Of a DNA stretch of 64,000 bases, positions 2,044-52,259 are shown piece by piece (the stretch's first letter is position 1; the number at the start of each line of letters is the position of its first letter). This DNA is from Kineosporiaceae bacterium (GTDB taxonomy: Bacteria > Actinomycetota > Actinomycetes > Actinomycetales > Kineosporiaceae). The notes beneath the pieces are model-generated. The model saw nothing but the letters and a program-made list of their open reading frames with translations, ran no database searches and was not told where the DNA came from. A program made the position numbers and the translations under genes. The stretch lies in contig JAEUJN010000043.1 of NCBI GenBank assembly GCA_016794595.1, positions 62,001 through 126,000 of the forward strand, read 5' to 3'.

Positions 2044-3651
2044 TCAGTAGAGCCGAAGGGCAGTGGCGTCCGCCCGGGCGGCCAGGTGCACCTGCGGGTT
2101 CCCCGCCGGGGTCAGGTCGGTGGCGCTGAACCGCACGGCCAGGCCGGAGCGGGAGGCGGTCAACATCAAGTACCCGCTGAGCTTGAAGGGGCTCACGACG
2201 TCCAGCGGGGTGATCCAGAACGCGTTGCCGGCGTCCGGGAAGCGGAAGGCGTACACGTCGAGGTTGCCGCCGGCAGTACGGATCGTCGAGCTCGCGTGCA
2301 GGAAGGTGCCGAACTTCTCGTTCACCAACTCCACCCCGTCCGCGACCGGACGGACGAACCACCGGTCCGACCGTGAGGCGCTCAGCGGGTGGTGGTAGAC
2401 CTCCTGGTGCATGCCCACGGACTCGCTCTGGCTCGCATGCGCGCACTCCCCGCTGCCGCGTTCGACCAGCGCCACGGCCAGGTCGGGTGGGACCTCGGTG
2501 AGCAGTAGCCCGCCGGAACGGATCAGGCGCACCTGGTCGCGCACGGTCTCGATCTCGGCGCCGAGGTCCGTCGTCCCGGCGGTGGCCAGGGCCGCCTCCA
2601 CCCGCGCGAGGTAGGGCATGATCACCGTCTCGATCGAGGCCCGGGAGAACACCGTCGCGAGCAGGTCTCGGAGCTGATCGCGGACGGCGTCCAGCAGCGT
2701 GGCGTCGGAGCGCACCAGGGCACCGAGCACGCTGTCGTCGTCCAGGTTGAAGGCGGCGTTCGGCTGCAGAATCTGGTCCAGCCCCCAGGGGATGAACCGC
2801 AGGGTGACCTGGTCGACGCCCGGGACCGCGACCGCGACCACGTCGTTGTACACGTAGGCGTTGTTCGCCTGCCCGGTGTAGCCGTCCCAGTGCTTCAGCA
2901 GGGTCTCCATGGCGTGGAAGCGCAGGAATTGCGCCAGGTCCACGACCTCGGCGGCGCCGGCCGGACCGGCGTCGGCGATCCGCTGAGCGGCCAGCAGCAG
3001 GTCGGCGCCGTCCTCGGCGTCCGAGAATCCCTGGTGGGTCAGACGACCGGCCGAGACCAGCGCCGAGGTCAGGTCCTCACCGAGCTCGATCTCGTAGAGG
3101 TTGCCCTCGTCGTTGCCGAAGGTGTTCTGGATGTGGCGTTTACGGACTGGCTCGCAGTTGACGTAGGTGCCCTGGTCCTCGCCGTTGACGATCACCCGGG
3201 CGATGTTGCAGCGGGAGAACGGCAGTCCGGCCAGGCGGAACAGCTCGTACCCGAGTGGCTGGCGGACGTAGGAGGGATCCTGGACGCAGTTGTGCAGCGT
3301 GACGTACTGGGTGCCGATGAGTGCCTCGATCGCGTCCTCGTGATCGAGGAACCGCGAGAAGTTCAGCCGCAGTGACGGTTTGGTCGTACTGAAGGATCCG
3401 CAGAACGACTTCTTCGAGATCCCGACGTCGGTGAACGAGTGCGGGCCGCCGGCCGGGAAGGCGGTGCCCGAGATCTCCACCGAGGTGGCGTGATACCAGT
3501 CGTAACGCTCCCCGGTGAAGGCGAAGTTGCAGAAGCCACCGCGCGGCTCGGCGGCCTTCAACGCCGCCCAGTCGGCGGGGGCCATGGTGACCCGGACGGT
3601 GAGTACGTTGTCGATCGCGTAGAAGGCGTTGCAGAGATCCTGGAGCGTCAT
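2044..3651 (-). CDS. CotH kinase family protein with C-terminal lectin-like domain
   Basis: A 535-aa protein. The CotH atypical kinase fold spans about residues 15-370. It carries the characteristic HWDGYTGQANNAYVYND block near 250 and the metal-binding aspartate block RFIPWGLDQIL near 288. CotH proteins of spore formers phosphorylate coat proteins; the actinobacterial members are of unknown target. Residues about 400-535 look like a beta-trefoil or similar carbohydrate-binding module (repeated G-x-F/Y-L-x-A strands). Odd points: secreted relatives usually carry a signal peptide and extra N-terminal residues, which are absent, and decayed DNA begins just upstream, so the 5' end may be lost. 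A partial copy lies at 10761-11051. Confidence 0.8.
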   Translation of the reverse strand: MTLQDLCNAFYAIDNVLTVRVTMAPADWAALKAAEPRGGFCNFAFTGERYDWYHATSVEISGTAFPAGGPHSFTDVGISKKSFCGSFSTTKPSLRLNFSRFLDHEDAIEALIGTQYVTLHNCVQDPSYVRQPLGYELFRLAGLPFSRCNIARVIVNGEDQGTYVNCEPVRKRHIQNTFGNDEGNLYEIELGEDLTSALVSAGRLTHQGFSDAEDGADLLLAAQRIADAGPAGAAEVVDLAQFLRFHAMETLLKHWDGYTGQANNAYVYNDVVAVAVPGVDQVTLRFIPWGLDQILQPNAAFNLDDDSVLGALVRSDATLLDAVRDQLRDLLATVFSRASIETVIMPYLARVEAALATAGTTDLGAEIETVRDQVRLIRSGGLLLTEVPPDLAVALVERGSGECAHASQSESVGMHQEVYHHPLSASRSDRWFVRPVADGVELVNEKFGTFLHASSTIRTAGGNLDVYAFRFPDAGNAFWITPLDVVSPFKLSGYLMLTASRSGLAVRFSATDLTPAGNPQVHLAARADATALRLY

Positions 3652-3729
3652 GCCGTTCCGAGTCGGGTCATGGTCGCTCTGATACCGCCAGGCGCAGCCG
3701 TGCCGGACCGGGGCTCGTCACTCGCCGCC

Positions 3730-3995
3730 CTACAGACGCTGCAGATCGACCGGCTGGACGTCACCGCCGTCGCTCGGATTCCGCGCTCGACTCGGCCGTC
3801 AATCCCTCGCGTGAGAACAACATCAGCCTGACACCGTCGTCCGGGTTCAGGAGGGCGCGAAGGTGTTCGAGGCGGCGCAGCTGATCCGTGCCGACTCACC
3901 GCGAGCGCCACTTCGCCTCACCGAGCGCGATCACGGCGGGGCTTGCTGCGGTCTCACGGTGGTGACAACGACGTCGATCTCATGATTCGTCCGAT
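3730..3995 (-). pseudogene. Remnant of a DUF234-type AAA ATPase (C-terminal nuclease-like part)
   Basis: Read on the minus strand in three frames, the DNA gives EIDVVV, then AVIALGEAKWRSR, a stop codon, VGTDQLRRLEHLRALL, a run ending RLMLFSREGL, and after another frameshift DVQPVDLQRL-stop. That order (E-I-D, G-E-x-K-W, RLEHLRALL, LFSR-x-G, DLQRL end) is what I know from the C-terminal domain of archaeal/bacterial ATPases with DUF234. At least one nonsense codon and two frameshifts separate the blocks, so no protein is made. The N-terminal ATPase part is not recognisable further upstream. It sits directly upstream of the CotH gene, in the same orientation. Confidence 0.6.
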
Positions 3996-4250
3996 GCTCA
4001 CGGCAGGGCACCGGCGGCGACTGGACGTGGCGGTCGGTCCGGTGCCGCCAGATCGGCTCCACCACCGAGGTGCGCCGGGCCAGCCCGGAGGATGCCTACC
4101 TGTCCCTCAGTCAGGTCACCCTGGCGCAGATCGGCATCCCCGGCCTGCTCGCCGTGAACCTGGTCAGGAACGTTTCCGCCGGGGGCGCCGGCTCAGCCTG
4201 CCGGCTTGCCGCCGGGGTCAGAGAGGGCCCTCGGGGTGTTGGCCTATGCG
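3996..4250. other. Intergenic stretch with no recognisable gene
   Basis: Open frames cross this stretch, but none has actinobacterial-looking codon use over a meaningful length or a recognisable domain. It probably holds further decayed sequence from the neighbouring ATPase remnant. I see no convincing RNA gene in it. Confidence 0.4.
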
Positions 4251-4254
4251 CGCC

Positions 4255-4360
4255 TTTGTGGAACCACATCACGATTCTGTTCGATATCTGTTCGTTACTG
4301 TTGCTTTGTGTGTGCGGGACAGTGTCCTCGGCACAGGCGCAGCGAGGCGCCTCGCCGGTG
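4255..4360 (+). promoter_or_regulatory. AT-rich promoter region of the sugar-uptake operon, with a 14-bp palindrome
   Basis: Positions 4261-4320 drop to about half GC, against roughly 70% around them, and include GATATCTGTTCGTTACTGTT. This is the only AT-rich stretch before the operon and the likely core promoter, though I cannot fix the -10 and -35 boxes. A perfect 14-bp palindrome, GCGAGGCGCCTCGC, follows at 4342-4355. Its dyad form would suit a dimeric sugar repressor, but no regulator gene is adjacent, so that role is speculative. Confidence 0.35.
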
Positions 4361-4390
4361 ACGGCGCCACCCATGTCGTGAGGTGCTCAC

Positions 4391-5761
4391 ATGTTTCCCG
4401 CTCCCCAAACCCGGCCCCGACGCCGTTGGGTGTCGATCCTGGCGGTCGCGCCACTGATGCTGGCCGCCGCCTGTGGTTCCGGTGGCAGTTCGGACGGCGC
4501 GGCGTCCGCCAGTGGTGCCGCCAGCAGCTCCGGCGAGGCGTGTGCCCCGGCCGGTGGCAAGGTTGCCCTGCAGTTCTGGACCTGGGTGCCGGGGATGGAC
4601 GAGGTGGTCGCCAAGTGGAACGCGGCCAACCCTGACATCCAGGTCACGGTCAAGAACACCCCGTCCGGCAACGCCGGCACGTACCAGAACATGTTCAACG
4701 CGCTGAAGGCCGGTACCGCCCCCGACCTCGGCCAGATCGAGTACGACACCCTCGCCAGCTTCCGCCTGCAGAAGGGGCTGCGGGACATCAGTGGGTGCCC
4801 CGGCGTCGCGGACGCCAAGAGCGACTTCGTGGGGTGGGCGTGGACGCAGTCCCAGATCGGCGGCCCCGGCGTCTACGCGATCCCGCAGGACACCGGCCCC
4901 ATGGCGCTGTACTACCGCAAGGACATCTTCGATGCCAATGGCATCGCGGTGCCGACAACCTGGGAGGAGTACGCCGCGGCAGGGGCGAAGCTCAAGGCCA
5001 AGGGCATCTTCCTCACCCACTTCCCGCAGCAGGACGCGAACTGGTTCGACGGTCTGCTCTGGCAGGCCGGGGCGAAGATCTTCGACACCACCGGTGACTC
5101 GGTGAAGGTGTCGCTGACCGATCCGCAGGCCGTCAAGGTGGCTGACTACTGGCAGAAGATGATCGACGACAAGGTGGTGGCAACCAACCTGCAGGGCTTC
5201 TCGCCCGATCTGTACAAGGCCTGGAACGACGGCAAGGTCGCGACCTGGATCTCGGCCTCCTGGGGCTACTCCACGATCCGGGACAACGCCAAGGGCAGCG
5301 CGGGCAAGTGGGCCGTTGCCCCGATGCCCCAGTGGAACGCCGGTGAGAAGAAGGCCGGCAACTGGGGTGGGTCGACCACCGGGGTGTTCTCGGGAAGCAA
5401 GTACCCCGCCGAGGCAGCGAAGTTCGCGCTGTGGCTGAACAGCGACCCGGCCGCGCTCGAACTGGCCAACGCCAAGGGCGGCCTGTACCCGGCCAATGTC
5501 GCGGGCCTCGAGCTGCCGGTCCTGAAGAAGGGTGTCGAGTTCTACGGTGGACAGCCGGTCTTCGACGTCTTCAAGGAGGCGGCGAGCAACGTGGACACCA
5601 CCTTCCAGTGGGGCCCGATCATGACCGACACCAACCGATTCCTGAGTGACGGGTTCACCAAGGCCCTCAACGGCCAGGGGACGCTCGGCGAGTCCCTGAA
5701 GGCGGCCCAGACCCAGACCGTGGCCGCGCTGAAGTCCCAGGGCATCGCGGTCACCGAGTGA
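4391..5761 (+). CDS. ABC sugar transporter, extracellular solute-binding lipoprotein
   Basis: A 456-aa family-1 solute-binding protein. It has a basic N-terminus, a hydrophobic core and a lipobox LAAAC with the lipidated cysteine at residue 28, followed by a Gly/Ser-rich linker. The mature part has the usual two-lobe features (ALKAGTAPDLGQIEYD; IPQDTGPMALYYRKDIFD; the WNDGKVATWISASW region). It captures an oligosaccharide outside the cell and hands it to the two permeases encoded next. The downstream GH42 gene suggests a beta-galactoside ligand (inference). The sequence GAGGTG before the ATG serves as ribosome site. The 91-bp gap to the permease is GC-rich. Confidence 0.92.
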   Translation: MFPAPQTRPRRRWVSILAVAPLMLAAACGSGGSSDGAASASGAASSSGEACAPAGGKVALQFWTWVPGMDEVVAKWNAANPDIQVTVKNTPSGNAGTYQNMFNALKAGTAPDLGQIEYDTLASFRLQKGLRDISGCPGVADAKSDFVGWAWTQSQIGGPGVYAIPQDTGPMALYYRKDIFDANGIAVPTTWEEYAAAGAKLKAKGIFLTHFPQQDANWFDGLLWQAGAKIFDTTGDSVKVSLTDPQAVKVADYWQKMIDDKVVATNLQGFSPDLYKAWNDGKVATWISASWGYSTIRDNAKGSAGKWAVAPMPQWNAGEKKAGNWGGSTTGVFSGSKYPAEAAKFALWLNSDPAALELANAKGGLYPANVAGLELPVLKKGVEFYGGQPVFDVFKEAASNVDTTFQWGPIMTDTNRFLSDGFTKALNGQGTLGESLKAAQTQTVAALKSQGIAVTE

Positions 5762-5852
5762 GCCGACGCTCCGGGACGCCGGCCCGCCGGCGTCCCGGAG
5801 CGGGTCCCTCCTCCAGCCACGTTCGGCCCCTTGCAGAGACGGAGCCAGTGCC

Positions 5853-6785
5853 ATGGCGGCCAGTTCACCGACGATGAGTTCGCCGACCGAGGTGTCGGCC
5901 GGACGACGAGAGCAGGGCCGACCCTGGCTGTGGTTCCTGCTGCCCTTCCTGGTTCCGTTCGTGCTGTTCTACGTGGTGCCGATCGGTTACGCGATTTACC
6001 AGAGCCTGTTCCGGATCCAGCGCTCGGGGGGGATCTTCGGGACCTCGGAACAGGTGTTCGCCGGGCTGAGTCAGTACCGCGACGTCCTGGCGGACGCCAC
6101 GTTCCGCGCCGGGGTCGGCCGGGTGCTGCTGTTCGGGGTGATCCAGGTACCGGTGATGCTCGGGCTGGCCCTGGTGATCGCCCTGATCCTGGACTCGGCC
6201 GTGGCCAGGTTGCGCAAGTTCTTCCGGGTCTCGTTCTTCGTGCCCTACGGCATTCCCGGGGTGATCGCCGCCCTCATGTGGGCCTTCCTGTACAGCCCCC
6301 AGCTCTCACCGATCGTCGACCTGCTGAACGCGATCGGCACTGCACCGAACTTCCTGGGCTCCGGACTGATCCTCTGGTCGATGGCCAACGTGACGACCTG
6401 GACCTACACCGGGTACAACATGTTGATCATCTACTCGGCCCTGCAGGCCCTCCCCCAGGAGATCTACGAGGCCGGCCGGCTGGACGGCGCCGGCGGCTTC
6501 CGGACCGCCTGGAGCATCAAGATCCCCCTGGTCTTCCCCGCACTGGTGCTGACCACAGTGTTCTCGATCATCGGCACGCTCCAGTTGTTCACCGAGCCCG
6601 TGGTGTTCCAGGCGATCTCGACCAACGTGCCCAGTGGCTACACGCCCAACATGCAGGCCTATGCGGTGGCGGCGTCCAACAACTACTCGTTCTCGGCCGC
6701 CCTGTCGGTGGTGCTGGCCGTGGCGACGTTCGTGCTGTCGTTCGGCTTCCTGCGATTCACCCAACGACGAGGGGAGGCGCTGTGA
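5853..6785 (+). CDS. ABC sugar transporter permease, MalF type
   Basis: A 310-aa inner-membrane permease with about six transmembrane helices, the first at roughly residues 28-50 (WFLLPFLVPFVLFYVV). The cytoplasmic EAA loop, which contacts the ATPase, is at about 205 (EAGRLDGAGGFRTAW). This fits the first permease of a CUT1 (carbohydrate uptake type 1) transporter. No ATPase gene is present in the operon; in many actinobacteria a shared MsiK-type ATPase encoded elsewhere serves such permease pairs. The stop codon overlaps the start of the next permease by 4 bases. Confidence 0.92.
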   Translation: MAASSPTMSSPTEVSAGRREQGRPWLWFLLPFLVPFVLFYVVPIGYAIYQSLFRIQRSGGIFGTSEQVFAGLSQYRDVLADATFRAGVGRVLLFGVIQVPVMLGLALVIALILDSAVARLRKFFRVSFFVPYGIPGVIAALMWAFLYSPQLSPIVDLLNAIGTAPNFLGSGLILWSMANVTTWTYTGYNMLIIYSALQALPQEIYEAGRLDGAGGFRTAWSIKIPLVFPALVLTTVFSIIGTLQLFTEPVVFQAISTNVPSGYTPNMQAYAVAASNNYSFSAALSVVLAVATFVLSFGFLRFTQRRGEAL

Positions 6786-7693
6786 GTGTGTCGACCGACC
6801 GGGCATCCCGGGGGTCCTCGACCGTCGACGCGATGCCTCGCAACCGGCGGGTACGCGAGGGGTCCCGCGGCTGGGGGCTGATCGCGATGGTCTTCCTGGT
6901 CTCGCTGACCGTCTACTTCCTGCTGCCGGTCTACTGGCTGGTGATCAACGCCACCAAGACCCAGAGCGACCTGGTCTCGACCAACGGCTTCTGGTTCTCT
7001 CGGATCGCGCTGTGGGACAACCTGTCCGCCCTGTTCGAGCGGGACAACACGGTCTTCCTGAGGTGGGTCGTCAACTCGCTGCTCTATGCCGGGGTGGGCG
7101 CCGCGATCGGGACCCTGCTGGCCGCGATGGCCGGGTATGCGCTGGCCAAGTACTCCTTCCCCGGCCGGGAGTTCATCTTCTCCTCGATCCTCGGCGGGGT
7201 GCTGGTGCCGGCCACGGCGTTGGCGTTGCCGCTGTTCCTGTTGTTCGCCAAGGTCGGCCAGACCGACACCATGTGGTCGGTGTTCCTGCCCAGCGTGGTG
7301 AGCCCGTTCGGGGTGTACCTCTCCCGGATCTTCGCGGCCTCGGCGGTGCCGGACGAGATCATCGAGGCGGCCCGGCTGGACGGCGCCGACGAACGCACGA
7401 TCTTCTTCTCGATCGCCACCCGGCTGATGTCGCCGGCACTGGTGACCATCTTCCTGTTCCAGTTCATCGCGATCTGGAACAACTTCCTCCTGCCCCGGGT
7501 CATGCTCAACGACGCCCGGCTGTACCCCCTGACCTACGGGTTGTTCTACTGGCAGACCCAGATCTCGCGCGACCCCCAGCTGCAGACCCTGGTGATCGTG
7601 GGCTCCTTGGTGTCGGTGATCCCACTGATCATCATCTTCCTGTCACTGCAACGATTCTGGCAGGCGGGCCTGTCGGCGGGTGCGGTGAAGTGA
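6782..7693 (+). CDS. ABC sugar transporter permease, MalG type
   Basis: A 303-aa permease. The GTG at 6782 overlaps the TGA of the preceding permease (GTGA), a typical sign of translational coupling; the longer open frame upstream is only the shadow of that gene. A leading polar tail of about 35 residues precedes the first helix (GLIAMVFLVSLTVYFLLPVY). The EAA loop is at about residue 194 (EAARLDGADERTIFF). Together with the upstream permease it forms the membrane channel of the CUT1 importer. The beta-galactosidase follows 7 bp downstream, which ties uptake to hydrolysis. Confidence 0.92.
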   Translation: MSVSTDRASRGSSTVDAMPRNRRVREGSRGWGLIAMVFLVSLTVYFLLPVYWLVINATKTQSDLVSTNGFWFSRIALWDNLSALFERDNTVFLRWVVNSLLYAGVGAAIGTLLAAMAGYALAKYSFPGREFIFSSILGGVLVPATALALPLFLLFAKVGQTDTMWSVFLPSVVSPFGVYLSRIFAASAVPDEIIEAARLDGADERTIFFSIATRLMSPALVTIFLFQFIAIWNNFLLPRVMLNDARLYPLTYGLFYWQTQISRDPQLQTLVIVGSLVSVIPLIIIFLSLQRFWQAGLSAGAVK

Positions 7694-7700
7694 GCCGACG

Positions 7701-9743
7701 ATGACGGGCGAGCCGCCGGCTCGGCAGCGGGACTGGTCGGCGCTGCGGGGTGGCCGGACCCGCATCGGGCTGGGCTGCGACTACAACCCTGAGCAGTGGC
7801 CCCGCGAGCTCTGGCCCCAGGATGTCGACCTCATGCGCCAGGCCGGGCTCACCTTCGTCACCCTCGGCGTCTTCTCGTGGTCCTTGCTCGAACCCGAGCC
7901 GGGCCGATTCGACCTGGACTGGCTGGGCGAGGTGATGGATCTGCTGCACGCGGGGGGAATCGCCGTCGACCTGGCCACCGGCACCGCCTCGCCCCCACCC
8001 TGGCTCTCGCACCGCCATCCCGAGACGCTCCCGGTCGACCGGGACGGGCGACGCGCCTGGCCAGGCGGCCGGCAGGCGTGGTGCCTGAGCTCGCCAGTCT
8101 TCCGGGACCGGGCGGTCGCCCTGGCGGAGGCGATGGCCACCCGGTTCGGTGATCATCCAGCGCTGGCCCTGTGGCATGTCGGCAACGAGTACGGGTGCCA
8201 CAACGCTGCTTGCTACTGCGACACCTGCGCCGAGTCGTTCCGCCACTGGCTCGCCGGCGCCTACCCCGACCTGGAGGCGCTCAACGCTGCCTGGGGCACT
8301 GCCTTCTGGAGCCAGCGCTACGGCGACCTGGCCCAGGTCCTGCCCCCACGGCGGGCGCTCACTCCGAGCAACCCGAGTCAGGTGCTGGACTACGCGCGGT
8401 TCTGCTCCGATGCGCTGCTCGGGCAGTTCCTGGCCGAACGCGACGTGCTGCGTCGGGTCTGCCCGGACGTACCGGTGACCACGAACTTCATGACACTCAA
8501 CCATTTTCGCGACCTTGACTATCACCGCTGGGCGTCTGAACAGGACGTGGTCAGCACCGACCACTACCTGGTCGCCACCCAGGTCGACGCCGAAGCGGAG
8601 CTGGCGTTCAGCGGTGACCTCACTCGGGGCCTGGCCCGAGGCGAGCCGTGGGTGCTGATGGAACACTCCACCTCGGCGGTGAACTGGCAGCCGGTCAACC
8701 CCGCCAAGCAACCCGGCCAGATGCTGCGCAACGCCGTCAGCCACTTGGCGCACGGCGCCGATGCCCTCGGCTTCTTCCAGTGGCGGGCCTCGCAGGCAGG
8801 CACCGAGAAATACCACTCGGCGCTGCTGCCGCACGCCGGCACCGACACCCGGATCTGGCGTGACGTGATGCGGCTGGGCTCGCTCGTGGAACGGCTCGAC
8901 GGCCTGGCCGGAACCCGGGTCAGCGCCGAGGTCGCGATCCTGTGGGACTACGCTGCCGGCTGGGCGCTGAACCAGCCGTCGCAGCCCAGCGAGTTGGTGC
9001 GTTACGGCGACGAGGCGCAGGCCCTGCACGCGGCCCTGCTGCGGCACGGCATCGCCGCCGACGTCGTGCATCCCCATCAGGACCTGACCGGCTACCGGCT
9101 GGTGATCGCGGCGACCCTGTACGCGTGCGATGACCGTGCGGTGCGAGGGATCAGCGATGCGGTGCGCGCCGGTAGCGATCTGCTGGTGACCTACTACTCC
9201 GGCATCGTCGACGAGCACGACCGAGTGCGGCTGGGGGGTTACCCCGGGGCGCTGCGTGACCTGCTCGGCATCCGGGTCGAGGAGTTCTGGCCGTTGCTGC
9301 CGGGCGAGAGGGTGCTGCTGGACGACGGCGCCACGGGCGGTATCTGGTCCGAGGACCTCCGGCTCGAGCAGGCCGCGGCCGTGGCCCGGTACGCGCACGG
9401 GCCGCTGGCCGGCGTCCCGGCGACGACCCGCCGGGACGCCGACGGGGCCACCCGTTGGTACCTGGCCACCAGCCTGCGGGGGGAAGACCTCGACCGTTTC
9501 GTCTCGATGGTGATTGCCCAGGCCGGCGTGGAGGCCCCGGTGGATGCGGCCCACGGTGTGGAGCGCGTCGTGCGCACGGGGGAATCGGGCAGCTACCTGT
9601 TCCTGATCAACCACACCGACCGGCCGGTACAGGTGGCCGCCCACGGCGTCGAACTGGTCTCGGCCCACCGCGTGGACGGCACCCTCACCCTGGCCGGCGG
9701 CGGCTGCGCCGTGGTGCGCCAGTCCAGCAACGAGAGCAGTTGA
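7701..9743 (+). CDS. Beta-galactosidase, glycoside hydrolase family 42
   Basis: A 680-aa cytoplasmic GH42 enzyme of normal length, with no signal peptide. The TIM barrel begins GCDYNPEQWP (about 25-35). The acid/base glutamate is E163 in HVGNEYGCH, followed by the cysteine cluster CHNAACYCDTC that binds a structural metal in many GH42 enzymes. The nucleophile is E321 in LMEHST. Trimerisation and C-terminal beta domains follow from about 400. It should cleave terminal beta-galactosides brought in by the neighbouring importer, possibly plant or algal galacto-oligosaccharides rather than lactose (inference). It lies 7 bp after the permease gene and so is co-transcribed. Confidence 0.92.
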   Translation: MTGEPPARQRDWSALRGGRTRIGLGCDYNPEQWPRELWPQDVDLMRQAGLTFVTLGVFSWSLLEPEPGRFDLDWLGEVMDLLHAGGIAVDLATGTASPPPWLSHRHPETLPVDRDGRRAWPGGRQAWCLSSPVFRDRAVALAEAMATRFGDHPALALWHVGNEYGCHNAACYCDTCAESFRHWLAGAYPDLEALNAAWGTAFWSQRYGDLAQVLPPRRALTPSNPSQVLDYARFCSDALLGQFLAERDVLRRVCPDVPVTTNFMTLNHFRDLDYHRWASEQDVVSTDHYLVATQVDAEAELAFSGDLTRGLARGEPWVLMEHSTSAVNWQPVNPAKQPGQMLRNAVSHLAHGADALGFFQWRASQAGTEKYHSALLPHAGTDTRIWRDVMRLGSLVERLDGLAGTRVSAEVAILWDYAAGWALNQPSQPSELVRYGDEAQALHAALLRHGIAADVVHPHQDLTGYRLVIAATLYACDDRAVRGISDAVRAGSDLLVTYYSGIVDEHDRVRLGGYPGALRDLLGIRVEEFWPLLPGERVLLDDGATGGIWSEDLRLEQAAAVARYAHGPLAGVPATTRRDADGATRWYLATSLRGEDLDRFVSMVIAQAGVEAPVDAAHGVERVVRTGESGSYLFLINHTDRPVQVAAHGVELVSAHRVDGTLTLAGGGCAVVRQSSNESS

Positions 9744-9787
9744 CGATCAGCCGGTGCACGCGGCCAACCAGGGAATGGTGACAGCAC

Positions 9788-10702
9788 ATGCCGAATCCGA
9801 GCGGATCGCCCGTCACCGCCGTCCCCAGCCCGTGGCACCTCGACGCAGACCAGGTCGAGTTCTTCGATGCGTACGGCTATCTCGTTCTGCCGCAACGTAT
9901 CCCAGATGAGCTGTTGACCCGGGTGCGGGCTGCGGCCGAGCACTGGATGGCCAGCGGTGAGCACCCTGACCGCGAACGCCCCGGGGACTGGCTGTTCGCC
10001 GATCGCCCGTCGGGCCGCGTGATGTACCGCGTCGACTACCTGCACGACAAGGGATCACCGGCGTCCTTGGAGCTGCTCGGCTCCCCCGAGATCCTGGGCA
10101 TCGCCGAGAGCCTGGCCGGCCCCGACTTCGTCCCGACCTACGAGTCGATGGTGTTCAAGGCAGCCGGGGACGCCGCCCCCATCCCCTGGCATCAGGACGC
10201 GGTACACGCGCGGCGGAGCCGGTTGTTCAACGTCGACGTGTACCTGGACGCCTCTCGGCGCGGAGGCGGGGCGCTGCACGTCGTCCCGGGGTCTCACGTG
10301 CGCCGCACCGACGCCTGCGCCCTGGCCGAGGAACACGGGTGGTCCCTGCCGGGGGCGATCGAGATCGAACTGGAGCCCGGTGACGTGCTGGTGCACGACG
10401 ACATGGTGGTGCACGGGTCGCCACCAGCGGTCGGCAGCGCGCTGCGCCGCACGGTGTACTACGAGTTCCGGTCGGCGCGGCACATCCTGGCCGAGGGACC
10501 CTGGACGCCGCACTGGGTGGACCGCCGGCTCCGCCTGGTGCCGCTGGCACTGGCCGAGCACGCCCGGAACTGGCCGCAGCAGCACCGGTTCACCTGGCGT
10601 GTCCCCGACGACCTGCGTCCGGTCCTCGGGCGTGACGAGCAAGCCGAGTTACGGATCGTGCACGAGGTGCACACCCCCGGCGAGTGGTGCAGTGCGGGTT
10701 GA
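9788..10702 (+). CDS. Phytanoyl-CoA dioxygenase (PhyH) family protein
   Basis: A 304-aa Fe(II)/2-oxoglutarate oxygenase. The metal triad is visible as H135-x-D137 (WHQDAVH) and H209 (MVVHGSPPAV), with a likely 2-oxoglutarate-binding arginine soon after (RRTVYYEF). The double-stranded beta-helix between them is of standard length, including the LHVVPGSH turn. Such enzymes hydroxylate small metabolites; the substrate is unknown. It lies 44 bp after the GH42 gene on the same strand and is likely part of the same transcript, where it might act on an unusual sugar or aglycone (inference). DNA immediately downstream is a recombination scar. Confidence 0.85.
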   Translation: MPNPSGSPVTAVPSPWHLDADQVEFFDAYGYLVLPQRIPDELLTRVRAAAEHWMASGEHPDRERPGDWLFADRPSGRVMYRVDYLHDKGSPASLELLGSPEILGIAESLAGPDFVPTYESMVFKAAGDAAPIPWHQDAVHARRSRLFNVDVYLDASRRGGGALHVVPGSHVRRTDACALAEEHGWSLPGAIEIELEPGDVLVHDDMVVHGSPPAVGSALRRTVYYEFRSARHILAEGPWTPHWVDRRLRLVPLALAEHARNWPQQHRFTWRVPDDLRPVLGRDEQAELRIVHEVHTPGEWCSAG

Positions 10703-10731
10703 CGGGCGGCCCCTCAGCCGACCACGTCCCC

Positions 10732-10760
10732 ACCTGGCCCGGCGTCCTGCGTCTGGCCCG
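10732..10760 (+). repeat. 29-bp direct repeat, left copy (identical to the start of msrB)
   Basis: The 29 bases starting ACCTGGCCCGGCGTCC and ending CTGGCCCG are identical to 12310-12338 inside msrB. They encode TWPGVLRLAR in the same register. From 10687 (GTG) the frame runs open into this copy, so it could be the cut-off 5' end of a former msrB. The partial CotH copy begins at the next base. Confidence 0.8.
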
Positions 10761-11051
10761 AAGTGGCCGGCGGACGTGAGAGGGATCCTGGACGCAGTTG
10801 TGCTGCGTGACGTACTGGGTGCCGATGAGTGCCTCGATCGCACCCTCGTGATCGGCGAACCGCGAGAAGTCCAGCCACAGTGAGGGTTTGGTCGTACTGG
10901 AGGATCCGCAGAACGACTTCTTCGAGATCCCGACGTCGGTGAACGAGTGCGGGCCGCCGGCCGGGAAGGCGGTGCCCGAGATCTCCTCCGAAGTGGCGTG
11001 ACACCAGTCGTAGCTCTCCCCGATGAAGGCGCAGTGGCAGACGCCGGTCAC
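10761..11051 (-). pseudogene. Partial duplicate of the CotH-kinase gene
   Basis: Aligned by eye, 10761-11040 matches 3253-3530 of the CotH gene almost without gaps, with roughly 18 differences in about 260 bases. It encodes the segment around FIGESYDWCH, SFTDVGISKKSFCG and TQYVTQHNCVQDPS, that is residues about 42-130 of the 535-aa protein. The kinase active-site blocks are absent, so this is a fragment, not a gene. One end abuts the 29-bp msrB-like repeat exactly; the other loses similarity before a DUF4143 ATPase remnant. The frame is still open, which suggests a fairly recent duplication. Confidence 0.85.
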
Positions 11052-11126
11052 GGTCGTTCTGATCCCAGAACTGCAGGCAGTTCGGGGACTCAGGCATGAC
11101 GCCGCCAGAGCACTCCGCGCCGGCCC

Positions 11127-12011
11127 TCACAACGCATGGCCCCACAACTGCTGCACCGGAAGGCTGATCAAACGGTCGCCCAGGGGAAGGACGCGCTCGC
11201 CGAGGTGCACCAGGGCCCCCCGGATGAATCTGTCGCCCACGCGATCGCGCAGCGCAGCCAATCCACGAAGGTCCTCTGGCCGCACACTCGCCGAGGCCTT
11301 GACCTCGACGGCGATGATCCGGCCGTCGTCCAACTCGAGGACCAGGTCGACCTCGAGGCCGTTGCGGTCGCGATAGTGCGTCAGGCGGTACCCGGTGCTG
11401 CTCCACCCCTGCTGGCGCAACAGTTCTGAGGCAATGAAGCCCTCGAGTTGAGCACCGAGGTGCTCTCCTCCAGTAATCGGGACCAGTCCGGCAGCGGTCA
11501 GACCGGCCAGGCGCATCGCGAGGCCCGGATCCACCACCACGGCCTTGGGGCGACTGACCTCGCATCGGGTGAGGTTCGGCGTCCACGGCTCGATCATCAT
11601 CACGAGAAACAGGGTGCGCAGCGTATCGGCATAGTTGATGATCGATGACGCCGGGATGCCGGCCAGTTCTCCCTGACTGAGCGGGAACAGGTGGACGGTC
11701 ACCGCACGGCCCGCGAGGCTGTCAGGGGTTCGCTCGAGGCGCAGAAGATCAGACGACCCGGTCAGCACGAACCGGCCGGGATCCCGACGACGGTCAACTG
11801 CCGCCTTGATCGCCGGGATCAGCTCCGGCACTCGTTGGATCTCATCGATGACAAGAATGAAGCGATCGACCGCGCCACGAAGCCTTCTGCATGCCCGCGC
11901 AGCGGTCAGCACCACCGAGTCGGCCAAGGTCACCATGGTTCGTGGACGACCCGCCGTGATCATGTCGGCGAAGGTGCTCTTGCCTACCTGCCGGGCACCT
12001 TCGATCACCAC
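11127..12011 (-). pseudogene. ATP-binding protein with DUF4143 domain, N-terminally truncated and internally deleted
   Basis: The open frame encodes 294 aa: a Walker A (GARQVGKST, residues 5-13), Walker B (FILVIDEIQ, near 51-59), a sensor segment (RFVLTGSSDLL) and LSQGEL. It then jumps directly to LRTLFLVMMIEPWTPNLT and the C-terminal DUF4143 nuclease-like part (NGLEVDLVLEL, IIAVEVKAS). Family members are about 400 aa, so roughly 100 residues between the ATPase and the C-terminal part are missing in frame. Upstream, the frame continues into the expected PVVV but hits TGA a few codons before it, so the first 20-30 residues are lost too. I treat it as a degraded gene, although a shortened protein could be made. 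Confidence 0.7.
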
Positions 12012-12252
12012 GACCGGGAAGGCCCCAGTGCTTCAGTGGCGAAGCCTTGTGATATTGCTTCTGATCAGGGAAGACACCCTACGTGGATGGCGAATTGCTT
12101 CCTTTGCATCGCCGTTCCGCTCATGATCATCTGTTGATTCGCTGGCCATGGGCTGTCGTTTCGCTCCATCGGACAGTCGTGCGGTCCGGACCGGTGGCCG
12201 GCCCTCGGGAGGGCATTGGAACAAGGATGACGCCGGCAGGGTTTGCCCCGGT

Positions 12253-12747
12253 GTGAGCGAGCAGACCCCGAGCGCCCAGGCCCCCGGCGCCGAGACGACC
12301 CAGACCCTGACCTGGCCCGGCGTCCTGCGTCTGGCCCGCGCCGGCAACCTGCCGGCCCCCCGGCGCGACGAGCGCACGCCCGAGCAGTGGCGCCAGGTGC
12401 TCAGCCGCGAGCAGTTCCGGGTCACCCGCAAGGCGGGCACCGAGATGCCGTTCAGCTCCAGCATGTGCTCGCTCTTCGAGCCCGGACGCTACGAGTGCCT
12501 CTGCTGCGGCACCGAGCTGTTCGACTCGACCACCAAGTTCGACAGCGGCACCGGCTGGCCGAGCTTCACCCAGGCCGTCCGACCCGACGTGGTGGCCTAC
12601 CACCTCGACTCCAGCCTCGGGATGGAGCGGGTCGAGGTGGTGTGCAACGTGTGCGACGCCCACCTGGGGCACGTGTTCCCCGACGGGCCCGCCCCGTCCG
12701 GGCTGCGGTACTGCATCAACGCCGTCTCGTTGAGCAAGGTGCACTGA
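12253..12747 (+). CDS. msrB: Peptide-methionine (R)-S-oxide reductase MsrB
   Basis: A 164-aa MsrB that reduces the R epimer of methionine sulfoxide in proteins. The zinc-binding pairs are C82/C85 (CLCCG) and C131/C134 (CNVCD). The substrate motifs GTGWPSF and HLGHVFPDGP are present, and the catalytic cysteine is C154 in RYCINAVSL. GTG 12253 is preferred because it begins just before the recognisable N-terminal region; upstream in-frame codons run into low-quality sequence. The region encoding residues 20-29 is duplicated at 10732-10760. The next gene, selO, starts 3 bp after the stop, so the two are surely co-transcribed. Confidence 0.93.
   Translation: MSEQTPSAQAPGAETTQTLTWPGVLRLARAGNLPAPRRDERTPEQWRQVLSREQFRVTRKAGTEMPFSSSMCSLFEPGRYECLCCGTELFDSTTKFDSGTGWPSFTQAVRPDVVAYHLDSSLGMERVEVVCNVCDAHLGHVFPDGPAPSGLRYCINAVSLSKVH
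12310..12338 (+). repeat. 29-bp direct repeat, right copy (inside msrB)
   Basis: Identical to 10732-10760. The two copies bracket about 1.55 kb that holds the CotH fragment, the broken DUF4143 gene and the present 5' end of msrB. Confidence 0.8.
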
Positions 12748-12750
12748 TCG

Positions 12751-14328
12751 GTGAGCGCCACCGTGGCCCCGGGCGGGCAACCGGTTCTCGACCACAGCTA
12801 TGCCCGGGAACTGAGCGGCGCCCACCTGCCCTGGACGCCGTCCCCGGTGACTCGGCCGCGCGCCGTCCGGCTCAATCACGCTCTGGCGGCGGAACTCGAC
12901 CTGCCGGCCGGCTGGCTGCAGGCCGAGTCGACGCTGCGCGTGCTGGCCGGGGCCGAGGTGCCGGACGGCGCCCAGCCGGTCGCCCAGGCCTACTCCGGCC
13001 ACCAGTTCGGGGTGTTCTCCCCGATGCTCGGCGACGGCCGGGCGGCGCTGCTCGGCGAGCTGATCGACCCCGCCGGACGGCGCTGGGACGTGGCGCTGAA
13101 GGGCTCCGGCCGAACTGCCTTCTCCCGCGGCGGGGACGGCCGGGCGGCGCTCGGCCCGGTGCTGCGCGAGTACCTGATGGGCGAGGCTATGCACGCGCTC
13201 GGGATCCCCACCACCCGGGCGCTGGCCGCGGTGACCACCGGCGAGCAGGTGTACCGCGAGCGCCCGCTGCCGGGCGCCGTCCTGACCCGGGTGGCCGCCT
13301 CCCACCTGCGCGTGGGCACCTTCGAGTTCGCGGCGCGCCGCGACCGTGACCTGCTGCGGCGGCTGGCCGAGCACGCGATCGCGCGGCACTACCCCCACCT
13401 GGCCGCGATCGAACCGGACGACGAGCGTTACCTCGCCCTGCTGCGCGCGGTGATCGAGACCCAGACCTCGCTGATCGCGCGGTGGATGGGCGTCGGGTTC
13501 ATCCACGGGGTGATGAACACCGACAACATGACGATCTCCGGCGAGACGATCGACTACGGCCCGTGCGCCTTTCTCGAGGTGTACGACCCGCGGACGGCGT
13601 TCAGCTCGATCGACCACGGCGGCCGCTACGCGTTCGGCAACCAGCCCGAGATCGCTGCCTGGAACCTCACCCGTTTCGCCGAGACCGTCGGGCCGCTGAT
13701 CGGCGAGGACCGTGAGGTGGTCGTGCCCCGCCTAATCGCGGCGCTCGAGACGTTCGACGTGGCCCACGACCGGCACTGGACGACGGTGCTGCGGGCCAAG
13801 CTCGGGCTGACGTCCGCCGGCCCGGACGACGCTGCCCACCGGCAGCGCGGGGATCGCGCCCTGGGCGAGGGCTATCTCGACCTGTTGCGACGCGGCGAGG
13901 TCGACTTCACCCTCGGCTGGCGGGCCCTGCTGGCCGAGGCAGAGGCCGATGCGGTGCCCGGGGACGGGACCGAGCGCAGTGGGGCATCGGATGCCGCGGG
14001 CGGGGTCCGAGCACTGCTGGCGGGCGGTTCGGTGCCCGCAGCGGAAGTGGAGGACTGGCTCTCACGCTGGCGCGGCCGGCGGCGCGAGGCCGCCCCCGGC
14101 GTCGAGGGGCTCGAGAGCATGCGCCGGGCGAACCCGATCTACATCCCGCGCAACCACCAGGTGGAGCTGGCCCTCGAGGCCGCCGTCGAGCACGAGGACC
14201 TCGGCCCGTTCGACCGGTTGCTGGCCGTGCTGGCCGACCCGTTCACCGAGCGGGCGCAGGACGCCGCGTACGCCGAACCCGCCCCGCAGTTCGTGACCGC
14301 GACCTACCGCACCTTCTGCGGCACCTGA
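12751..14328 (+). CDS. selO: Protein adenylyltransferase SelO (YdiU family)
   Basis: A 525-aa pseudokinase-fold enzyme of usual family length. It shows the nucleotide-binding block LKGSGRTAFSRGGDGRAALG at about residues 112-131, the REYLMGEAMHALGIPTTRAL helix, and the metal-binding loop HGVMNTDNMT at about 251-260 followed by IDYGPCAF. SelO transfers AMP to protein hydroxyl groups and is tied to oxidative-stress and glutathionylation control in the organisms studied. Bacterial members, like this one, lack the C-terminal selenocysteine. GTG at 12751 is 3 bp after msrB. The pairing of a methionine repair enzyme with SelO supports a shared redox-stress role (inference). Confidence 0.92.
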   Translation: MSATVAPGGQPVLDHSYARELSGAHLPWTPSPVTRPRAVRLNHALAAELDLPAGWLQAESTLRVLAGAEVPDGAQPVAQAYSGHQFGVFSPMLGDGRAALLGELIDPAGRRWDVALKGSGRTAFSRGGDGRAALGPVLREYLMGEAMHALGIPTTRALAAVTTGEQVYRERPLPGAVLTRVAASHLRVGTFEFAARRDRDLLRRLAEHAIARHYPHLAAIEPDDERYLALLRAVIETQTSLIARWMGVGFIHGVMNTDNMTISGETIDYGPCAFLEVYDPRTAFSSIDHGGRYAFGNQPEIAAWNLTRFAETVGPLIGEDREVVVPRLIAALETFDVAHDRHWTTVLRAKLGLTSAGPDDAAHRQRGDRALGEGYLDLLRRGEVDFTLGWRALLAEAEADAVPGDGTERSGASDAAGGVRALLAGGSVPAAEVEDWLSRWRGRRREAAPGVEGLESMRRANPIYIPRNHQVELALEAAVEHEDLGPFDRLLAVLADPFTERAQDAAYAEPAPQFVTATYRTFCGT

Positions 14329-15329: not shown

Positions 15330-15395
15330 CCCTCACCCCTCGTGATCATGCACTTTCGACGACGTCGAAAGTGCATGGTCACGAGGGGGTGAGGG
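15330..15395. repeat. Palindromic repeat copy 2, in a divergent promoter region
   Basis: The core arm CACTTTCGAC pairs perfectly with GTCGAAAGTG around a 3-base loop (15361-15363). Pairing extends outward through GTGATCATG and further through a C-rich/G-rich arm, giving about 30 paired bases with one G-T pair and one bulge. Unlike the other copies it lies between two 5' ends, 50 bp before the MmcQ start and 24 bp before the oxidoreductase start. It could act on transcription of either gene or in the leader RNA. Confidence 0.85.
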
Positions 15396-31741: not shown

Positions 31742-31851
31742 ACGCCGAGAACCTCCGCGTCGTCGAGGCTGCGGGATGCAGCCCTGATGACTCAAAGCTA
31801 GATCTCGACCACTCAGAGTGTCGATCGCCCTGCCGAGTGACCTCCCCCCTG

Positions 31852-31891
31852 GTGATCATGCACTTTCGAATAGTCGAAAGTGCATGATCAC
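31852..31891. repeat. Palindromic repeat copy 3, terminator of the FGGY operon
   Basis: An 18-bp perfect stem with a loop ATAG (31870-31873). The core is the family's CACTTTCGA/TCGAAAGTG, extended by GTGATCATG. It ends 3 bp before the stop codon of the DUF1801 gene, the last gene of the minus-strand operon, and about 110 bp upstream of the GH16 start, so it separates the two transcripts. Confidence 0.85.
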
Positions 31892-31894
31892 GGG

Positions 31895-32233
31895 TCACAG
31901 GGTCAGGCGGTACCGGACCATCCGCTCGATCAGCTCCATCGGCAAGGGCTCGTCGTGCGGGAACTGCACCGAGCCCTTGGCCCAGGTGCGCCCACCGAAC
32001 TCCGCGGCGAAGTGCTCGATGGTGGCCGGGCCGGGGTAGAACCCGACGTGCCGGGCGAACCCGGCCCAGTGCACGAAGTTCTTCCCCGTGCGCTTGAACG
32101 TCGGGATCCCGTAAGAGATCGCCGCGGTGACGTCCGGCACGATCGAACGCACCAGGGACTCGATCTGCTCCAGCCGCTCGCGGGCCACCTCGTCCACTGC
32201 CGCATAGCTCTCGGCGAACACCGGGTCGGTCAT
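31895..32233 (-). CDS. Small DUF1801 (YdhG-like) protein
   Basis: A 112-aa protein with the YdhG-type domain. It shows SLVRSIVPDVTAAISYGIPTFKR, the NFVHWAGFARHVGFYPGP strand pair, and SVQFPHDEPLP near the end. B. subtilis YdhG is called an iron chaperone because of its frataxin-like fold, but this is not settled for the wider family. ATG 32233 overlaps the FGGY-kinase stop by 4 bases, so it is translated with that operon. Its link to sugar metabolism is unclear. Confidence 0.85.
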   Translation of the reverse strand: MTDPVFAESYAAVDEVARERLEQIESLVRSIVPDVTAAISYGIPTFKRTGKNFVHWAGFARHVGFYPGPATIEHFAAEFGGRTWAKGSVQFPHDEPLPMELIERMVRYRLTL

Positions 32234-49098: not shown

Positions 49099-49803
49099 GT
49101 GGACTGGGTCGGCGAGCTACGGCTGCGGGTGCTGCCGGTCGCCGGGGACGTCGCCGGGCCGGACGGGCGCACCGTGGCGATCACCCTGGCGGCGGCGTCC
49201 GCCCTGGTGTTCGTGCCCGGGCTGTGGAGCCTGGCCCGCGTGGCGGTCACCCTGGTGCACGAACTCGGGCACGCCCTGGTCGGCATGGCCGTCGGACGCC
49301 GGTTCACCGGCTTCGTCGTCCGCAACGACATGTCGGGGCACGCGGTCACCGCGGGGCGGCCGCGTGGCCCGGGGCTGGTGCTGACCACCTGGGCGGGGTA
49401 CCCGGCCCCGGCCCTGGTCGGGGCCGGGCTGGTGTGGACCGCCGTCCGCGGCTGGTCGGCGCCGGTGCTGACCGGCGCACTGCTGATCATCCTGTTGGCC
49501 GTGCTGCGGATCCGCTCGGCCTACACCGCGCTGGTGATGGCCGCCGCCCTGGGTGGGCTGGGCGCGTTGTGGTGGTGGCGCGCGGACGGCGTCCAGCAGC
49601 AGGTACTGATCGCCGCGGGGCTGCTGCTCATCGTGGGGGCGTGGCGGCACGTGCTGGCGGTGATGAGCGCCGGGTCGGGCGGCGATGACCCCGCGGTGCT
49701 GGCCCGCCTCACCGGCGTGCCGCGGCTGGTGTGGAGTCTCAGCTATCTGGCGGTGGCCGCGGGGTCGGCCTGGCTGGTGGTGGGCCAGCTCACCGGGCTG
49801 TGA
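49099..49803 (+). CDS. M50B-like membrane zinc metalloprotease
   Basis: A 234-aa integral membrane protein with the zinc motif HELGH at about residue 54, inside the second hydrophobic segment (ARVAVTLVHELGHALVGMAVG). About five or six helices follow, including GLVLTTWAGYPAPALVGAGLVW. It fits the small actinobacterial M50B-like family, of intramembrane protease type but without PDZ domains. The GTG 49099 start gives a normal N-terminus. Its stop codon TGA (49801-49803) forms the left edge of the palindromic repeat. Substrates unknown. Confidence 0.85.
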   Translation: MDWVGELRLRVLPVAGDVAGPDGRTVAITLAAASALVFVPGLWSLARVAVTLVHELGHALVGMAVGRRFTGFVVRNDMSGHAVTAGRPRGPGLVLTTWAGYPAPALVGAGLVWTAVRGWSAPVLTGALLIILLAVLRIRSAYTALVMAAALGGLGALWWWRADGVQQQVLIAAGLLLIVGAWRHVLAVMSAGSGGDDPAVLARLTGVPRLVWSLSYLAVAAGSAWLVVGQLTGL

Positions 49804-49867
49804 CCACCACCCCTCGTGATCATGCACTTTCGAATAGTCGAAAGTGCATGATCACGAGGGGTGGTCA
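49801..49867. repeat. Palindromic repeat copy 4, stop-to-stop terminator
   Basis: The longest and cleanest copy: a 28-bp perfect stem (49806-49833 with 49838-49865) and loop ATAG. It spans exactly from the TGA of the metalloprotease gene to the TGA (complement) of the GPP34 gene, so both stop codons are part of the palindrome edges. This is a clear bidirectional terminator position. Confidence 0.9.
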
Positions 49868-52198: not shown

Positions 52199-52259
52199 GC
52201 GCGCGGTCCCTGGCGCGCGGTCCCTGGCTCGCGGTCCCTGGCTCGCGGTCCCTGGCTCG
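52199..52259 (+). repeat. 14-bp tandem repeat (about 4.4 copies)
   Basis: The unit GC(G/T)CGCGGTCCCTG is repeated four times and then cut after GCTCG. The first two copies have GCGCG, the last two GCTCG. It lies 40 bp after the DinB-like gene and about 105 bp before the antitoxin-like gene. No open frame explains it. Confidence 0.85.

Follow-up and report, generated by a model that had tools for sequence, protein, structure and literature searches.

Within the window, i.e., the whole 64-kb stretch of DNA that we analysed, a 29-base sequence lying inside msrB is repeated upstream of the gene, raising the question of whether the upstream copy is the original beginning of msrB, cut off by an insertion, or a stray piece of the gene joined there by recombination. 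The two copies lie on the plus strand at 10732-10760 (left copy) and 12310-12338 (right copy, which begins at codon 20 of msrB and ends within codon 29), with a spacing of 1578 bases and no mismatch between them, as the initial annotation had reported. Its judgement that such a match is not expected by chance was borne out: the longest direct repeat in 100 windows simulated with an order-4 Markov model averaged 17.8 bases and never exceeded 20, and thus the 29-mer is a real repeat of a length beyond chance. Allowing up to three mismatches, it occurs twice in the window and not once in 100 dinucleotide shuffles, and a search for further copies, extended to the whole draft assembly (123 contigs, 4,954,352 bases), again returned only these two. 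A 27-base core of the repeat was present in 6 of 137 loci, all six from the same genome, and the exact 29-mer was absent from viral contigs.

Four exact direct repeats in the window are longer than the 29-mer (86, 41, 37 and 30 bases). The 86- and 37-base repeats are part of a pair formed by a CotH gene and its copy, discussed below, and an exact 30-base direct repeat at 52216-52259, with an offset of 14 bases, is a short tandem repeat. The window also carries a dispersed palindromic repeat of ~45-60 bp with the core GTGATCATGCACTTTCGA (113-170, 15331-15394, 31837-31903 and 49800-49863), which presumably resembles the REP-type repeat family. The one copy that was folded (49805-49865) forms a single 28-pair hairpin (z -15), and the 18-base half-site, with at most one mismatch, occurs 68 times in forward and 74 times in reverse orientation in the assembly (0 for a reversed control).

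To which of the two places does the 29-mer belong? On the right, msrB (methionine-R-sulfoxide reductase; 12253-12747, plus strand) is intact: its SelR domain (PF01641, 159.3 bits) is nearly full-length (positions 1-113 of 116), its probable start is the GTG at 12253, and selO (12751-14328, plus strand; PF02696, 341.8 bits) lies directly downstream. The 57 nt preceding the right copy, i.e., codons 1-19 of msrB, have a GC content of 77% with G or C at all 19 third positions, versus 68% and 23 of 35 in the 105 nt (35 codons) upstream of them and 55-68% in the debris. Moreover, the residue preceding the 29-mer is a leucine (Leu19, before Thr-Trp) at the right copy, whereas it is a proline at the left copy. 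When 109 relatives from 123 indexed loci (L124-L139 left out) were compared, 59 aligned to residue 19, and 58 of these carry L, I, M, V or F at this position, a count biased upward, as 36 of the 59 alignments begin exactly at residue 19 and local alignments favour good-match starts; by eye, the extended translations of the relatives present the same hydrophobic pattern there. In many relatives msrB apparently begins Met-(Leu/Ile)-X-Trp, as read from translations with putative starts, and the sequence upstream of this conserved start differs among them. The leucine before the right copy and the coding-like composition of the 57 nt make it most likely that 12253 is where the msrB coding sequence begins, so that the right repeat, which we read as the original, most likely falls within the gene and does not mark the boundary of the debris. 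Of note, selO and msrB are also adjacent in loci L041 and L050, with selO first in those loci and msrB first here; msrB has been found over-represented near SELO genes (PMC3281104), and the adjacency seen here agrees with it.

The left copy stands downstream of phyH (phytanoyl-CoA dioxygenase family; 9788-10702, plus strand; PF05721, 66.4 bits), which is intact to its natural C-terminus. Three homologues (59-70% identity) align up to its last residue, 304, and this gene was therefore not cut. A 29-nt spacer (10703-10731) separates the phyH stop from the left copy, and its similarity to the msrB N-terminus is what chance would give: the anchored score was 12, and 662 of 1000 shuffles and 188 of 1000 random 29-base window stretches scored at least as high. 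A gapped extension of the repeat downstream was likewise at chance level (948 of 1000 reach its score). The composition on this side gives no argument against a coding origin, as the codons at 10699-10731 have G or C at the third position in 10 of 11 cases. In addition, the left copy can be read in frame from a TTG at 10699 that overlaps the stop of phyH (TTGA), as in coupled genes, and an older msrB start at this TTG is conceivable.

The initial annotation had set store by the two copies being in the same register, each in an open frame with a GTG upstream. This description is true, the GTG at 10687 lying inside phyH, but it carries little information: an in-frame upstream GTG before any stop within 300 nt was found for 55.5% of 5,000 random window positions, and since such a GTG is so common by chance, we dropped the frame of the left copy as evidence. 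The accompanying proposal, in which the left copy represents the 5' end that msrB originally had, was not upheld, given the proline that precedes it, a spacer matching the msrB N-terminus no better than chance, and the native-like right copy.

What lies between the copies is largely pseudogene debris, consisting of a decayed CotH copy and a degraded ATPase gene, so that the term pseudogene island, used for it earlier, is apt. The CotH fragment (10757-11045, minus strand) is 92% identical to 3250-3537, corresponding to about codons 39-133 of 535 of its source, an intact CotH kinase-like gene at 2044-3651 on the minus strand (PF08757, 80.4 bits). Copy and source differ by 22 substitutions in 285 positions (7.7%), 6 synonymous and 16 non-synonymous, and the synonymous share is the random proportion (24% expected, p 0.80). 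Because this split matches the random one, the copy has drifted as a pseudogene and not diverged as a working donor gene.

The differences are clustered: 86 identical bases run from 3393 to 3478 in the gene and from 10901 to 10986 in the copy (chance 0.006), the other 199 compared positions holding all 22 differences, and the identical run may reflect later gene conversion with the intact CotH gene. A possible continuation of the copy after a deletion lies at 11046-11066 (minus strand), where 18 of 21 bases match 3666-3686; the match is weak, for although only 0.8% of 3,000 random 300-base segments reach its score, other places in the window score as high or slightly higher. Two further observations concern the neighbourhoods of copy and gene. 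An imperfect palindrome lies within the debris at 11059-11093 (opposite-strand self-match, score 36), and upstream of the intact CotH gene, at 3780-3990 on the minus strand, an apparent ATPase-like remnant was noted by eye only.

Where exactly does the CotH piece begin? It had been placed at the very next base after the left copy, which is nearly correct, but the alignment in fact starts within the repeat, at 10757. The CCCG that closes the left 29-mer (10757-10760) is common to the msrB piece and the CotH piece, after which the copy has one extra A. Because the CotH match begins inside the 29-mer with this common CCCG, we read the left 29-mer and the CotH piece as one fusion, with the microhomology as its joint. 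An overlap of at least four bases at a random joint has a chance of 0.031, and for a genome rich in GC, four bases are a modest overlap. The joint leads from msrB (up to 12338) to CotH (from 3254) in direct orientation, with plus-strand coordinates rising in both pieces. With CotH upstream, msrB downstream and a joint running from msrB to CotH, the coordinates are those expected for a direct duplication of 3254-12338.

The other main component of the debris is a degraded AAA_14/DUF4143 ATPase gene (11127-12035, minus strand) with an in-frame internal deletion. Its stop, TGA at 12035-12033, sits just upstream of a stretch that we take to be Walker A-like. In its middle, ~100 residues are missing in comparison with the paralogues L035, L036, L037 and L038 of the same genome (gaps of 85-110 codons), so that deletion decay is visible at the site. 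Since the best of the paralogues is only 47-49% identical at the protein level, the gene does not look like a recent copy from elsewhere in the assembly.

At E ≤ 1, Pfam returned AAA_14, DUF4143 and two weak sub-threshold families for the ATPase frame, and nothing for the CotH piece or for nine further frames in or across the debris. Thus, none of the 11 debris reading frames has a transposase, recombinase or integrase domain at this threshold, although a non-autonomous element would also lack a transposase. Comparing the 40-base ends of the putative insert, the best inverted match comprised 8 of 9 bases and lay at least 26 bases from the tips; 34.5% of 3,000 random pairs attained its score of 13. 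Models in which the 29-mers are a target-site duplication or att sites found no support when the ends were compared for inverted repeats and the domain content was scanned. The suggestion that an insertion split msrB and created a second start fared no better: in addition to the want of terminal inverted repeats and of a recognised recombinase, 12253-12309 has coding composition.

An ancestral, uninterrupted phyH-msrB junction was not seen in any genome searched, none of which had the flanking genes closely enough. Among 58 relatives including the genome itself, in which the genus is represented by the window's genome alone, msrB gave 55 matches of at most 53% identity apart from itself. At E ≤ 1e-45 it matched 1 of 396 genomes of the order, i.e., itself (at most nine candidates scored per genome, among the matches listed), and in the phylum sample of 396 genomes, 32 had a match at E ≤ 1e-42, its own genome counted, with at most 59% identity apart from itself. 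The best of the matches listed in genome contigs (80 of at least 594 loci kept) was 70% identical, to a Gemmatimonadota contig. As an aside, some Gemmatimonadota and Proteobacteria have sequences nearer to this msrB (up to 70% among the matches listed) than do the 57 other genomes of its family and order (up to 53%), a pattern that may reflect transfer.

Matches to phyH were found in 3 of the 58 relatives at E ≤ 1e-3 and in 4 of 394 class-sample genomes at E ≤ 1e-30 (at most five candidates scored per genome, among the matches listed), both counts including the genome itself. Three phyH homologue loci, with up to 1.5 kb of flank, had no match to msrB, selO, CotH, the ATPase or GH42 at E ≤ 1e-5, and among the 58 genomes, at E ≤ 1e-60, the ATPase and CotH matched no genome but their own. 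Among plasmid records there was a single short match, with the gene of an ATP-binding protein, and phage records gave none.

Taken together, these results lead us to read the left 29-mer and the CotH piece as one scar next to an msrB that was never split, left most likely by a ~9-kb tandem duplication and subsequent deletions, a reading to which we give a probability of about 0.5. Our confidence in it is moderate because no close relatives of msrB, phyH, CotH or the ATPase turned up in the genomes searched. The two copies present in the genome, their order and orientation, the common CCCG and the decay of the CotH copy are all observed. The proposed course is as follows. Illegitimate recombination at CCCG would have duplicated 3254-12338 in tandem, and the new joint would read the 5' piece of msrB followed by CotH. 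One deletion would then have removed the duplicate sequence between phyH and the 29-mer, and another would have extended from ~11046 into the neighbouring ATPase pseudogene, while the msrB starting at GTG 12253 would have stayed uninterrupted throughout. A single event producing both pieces, the passage through a tandem duplication and the later deletions are thus the parts that we infer.

Several points count against this scheme, among them the modest overlap at the joint and the TTG at 10699 described above. The 29-mer has no differences whereas the CotH copy has 22 in 285, for which the chance is 0.097 if both are of the same age, a counterpoint to their origin in one event; the clustering of the differences in the CotH copy points to a history that is not simple; and the preferred course calls for no fewer than two deletions on top of the duplication. 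Of the presumed second copy, msrB would be represented by 29 nt and CotH by 289 nt, and beyond the weak 21-base match no further remnant was found, either when the debris at 11040-11160 and 12012-12309 was compared with the window or by self-BLAST. The scar is probably without a function of its own, debris upstream of msrB, and on this reading it matters little in itself, being a remnant of duplication or repair and of deletion such as bacterial genomes are known to carry. It does carry a warning: an exact flanking repeat need not be a target duplication, since one of its boundaries here falls within a stretch homologous to a gene that is 7.5 kb distant.

Could the same fusion have arisen more directly? 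Template switching or filler capture at a break between phyH and the pre-existing ATPase pseudogene would have copied in 29 nt of msrB and ~285-310 nt of CotH, and the fusion of short stretches from two nearby genes through a microhomology of 4 bases is consistent with it. One event would be enough, in keeping with the lack of any other clear trace of a 9-kb second copy. It would not lead one to expect both pieces in their source orientation and in the order of a tandem duplication (each orientation being a one-in-two outcome), and although the evidence separates the two routes poorly, we prefer duplication, from which order and orientation follow, and consider template switching unlikely. Assembly error has in its favour that the draft consists of 123 contigs, that a 29-base repeat is short enough to cause a misjoin and that the joint is chimeric; with the CotH copy 22 changes away from its source, and therefore no read-level duplicate, and with a misjoin alone unable to make a second copy of the 29-mer, it is highly improbable that the assembler made both repeat and joint.

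The other alternatives treat the left copy as a former msrB start, or the repeat pair as a site of exchange. In homology-facilitated illegitimate recombination, a mechanism described in bacteria (PMC3240628), a foreign or sister-strain CotH-ATPase-msrB segment would have come in through a homologous crossover within msrB at its right end and an illegitimate join at CCCG at its left end, with the left copy as the old start of msrB (TTG 10699). The in-frame TTG overlapping the phyH stop, the third-position G or C in 10 of 11 codons and the variability before the conserved msrB start among relatives all accord with such an event, which we nevertheless find quite unlikely: the left copy has a proline where 58 of 59 aligned relatives, by the upward-biased count given above, have a hydrophobic residue, the 29 nt past the phyH stop resemble the msrB N-terminus no more than chance allows, and the CotH piece drifted unconstrained, not as a working gene.

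Very unlikely, in our estimation, is a model in which an element entered close to the start of msrB, with duplication of a 29-bp target, left the original start on the left and supplied a new one; if true, it would make msrB an instance of a gene that acquired a new start through an insertion. Debris of foreign appearance is indeed bracketed by exact 29-bp direct repeats with a spacing of 1578, and the length of the repeat alone was not weighed against insertion because target duplications in the IS1202 group are unusually long, at 16-28 bp (PMC10132070). Against it, the debris lacks both a transposase domain (in its 11 frames) and terminal inverted repeats, and its left boundary falls within homology to the resident CotH gene. 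The right edge, moreover, lies within the msrB coding sequence, where 12253-12309 is coding-like with a Leu as in relatives, so that an insert would not end at 12309. Last, a pair of 29-mers serving as a recombination core, through which a small non-autonomous segment enters and leaves the 5' end of msrB and swaps its N-terminus and its coupling to phyH, is an extremely improbable account of the site.

Among known systems, the IS1202 group (PMC10132070) comes close in the length of the flanking direct repeat (16-28 bp there and 29 here, just above the range), and the ISAjo2 group of the same family is described there with a 1.5-kb size and 5-bp duplications. Unlike in the IS1202 group, transposase domain and terminal inverted repeats are absent here, and the insert has a copy of a resident gene at one end. 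With homology-facilitated illegitimate recombination (PMC3240628), our site would share the joining of one end of the new DNA at a short homology, whereas the CotH piece here is a copy of a resident gene and the left copy bears no positive sign of having belonged to an older msrB.

There is also a likeness to the duplications and deletions that arise spontaneously in bacteria at short direct repeats. From Salmonella chemostat cultures, a cut-off of at least 11 bp was deduced for duplications (PMC3411829), whereas the overlap here is only 4 bases and the duplication, its route inferred, would have been almost wholly lost. What these cases, together with tandem duplication by illegitimate recombination (PMC11111574), have in common with the scar upstream of msrB is a direct-orientation joint of two distant sites and, less clearly, a short common sequence.
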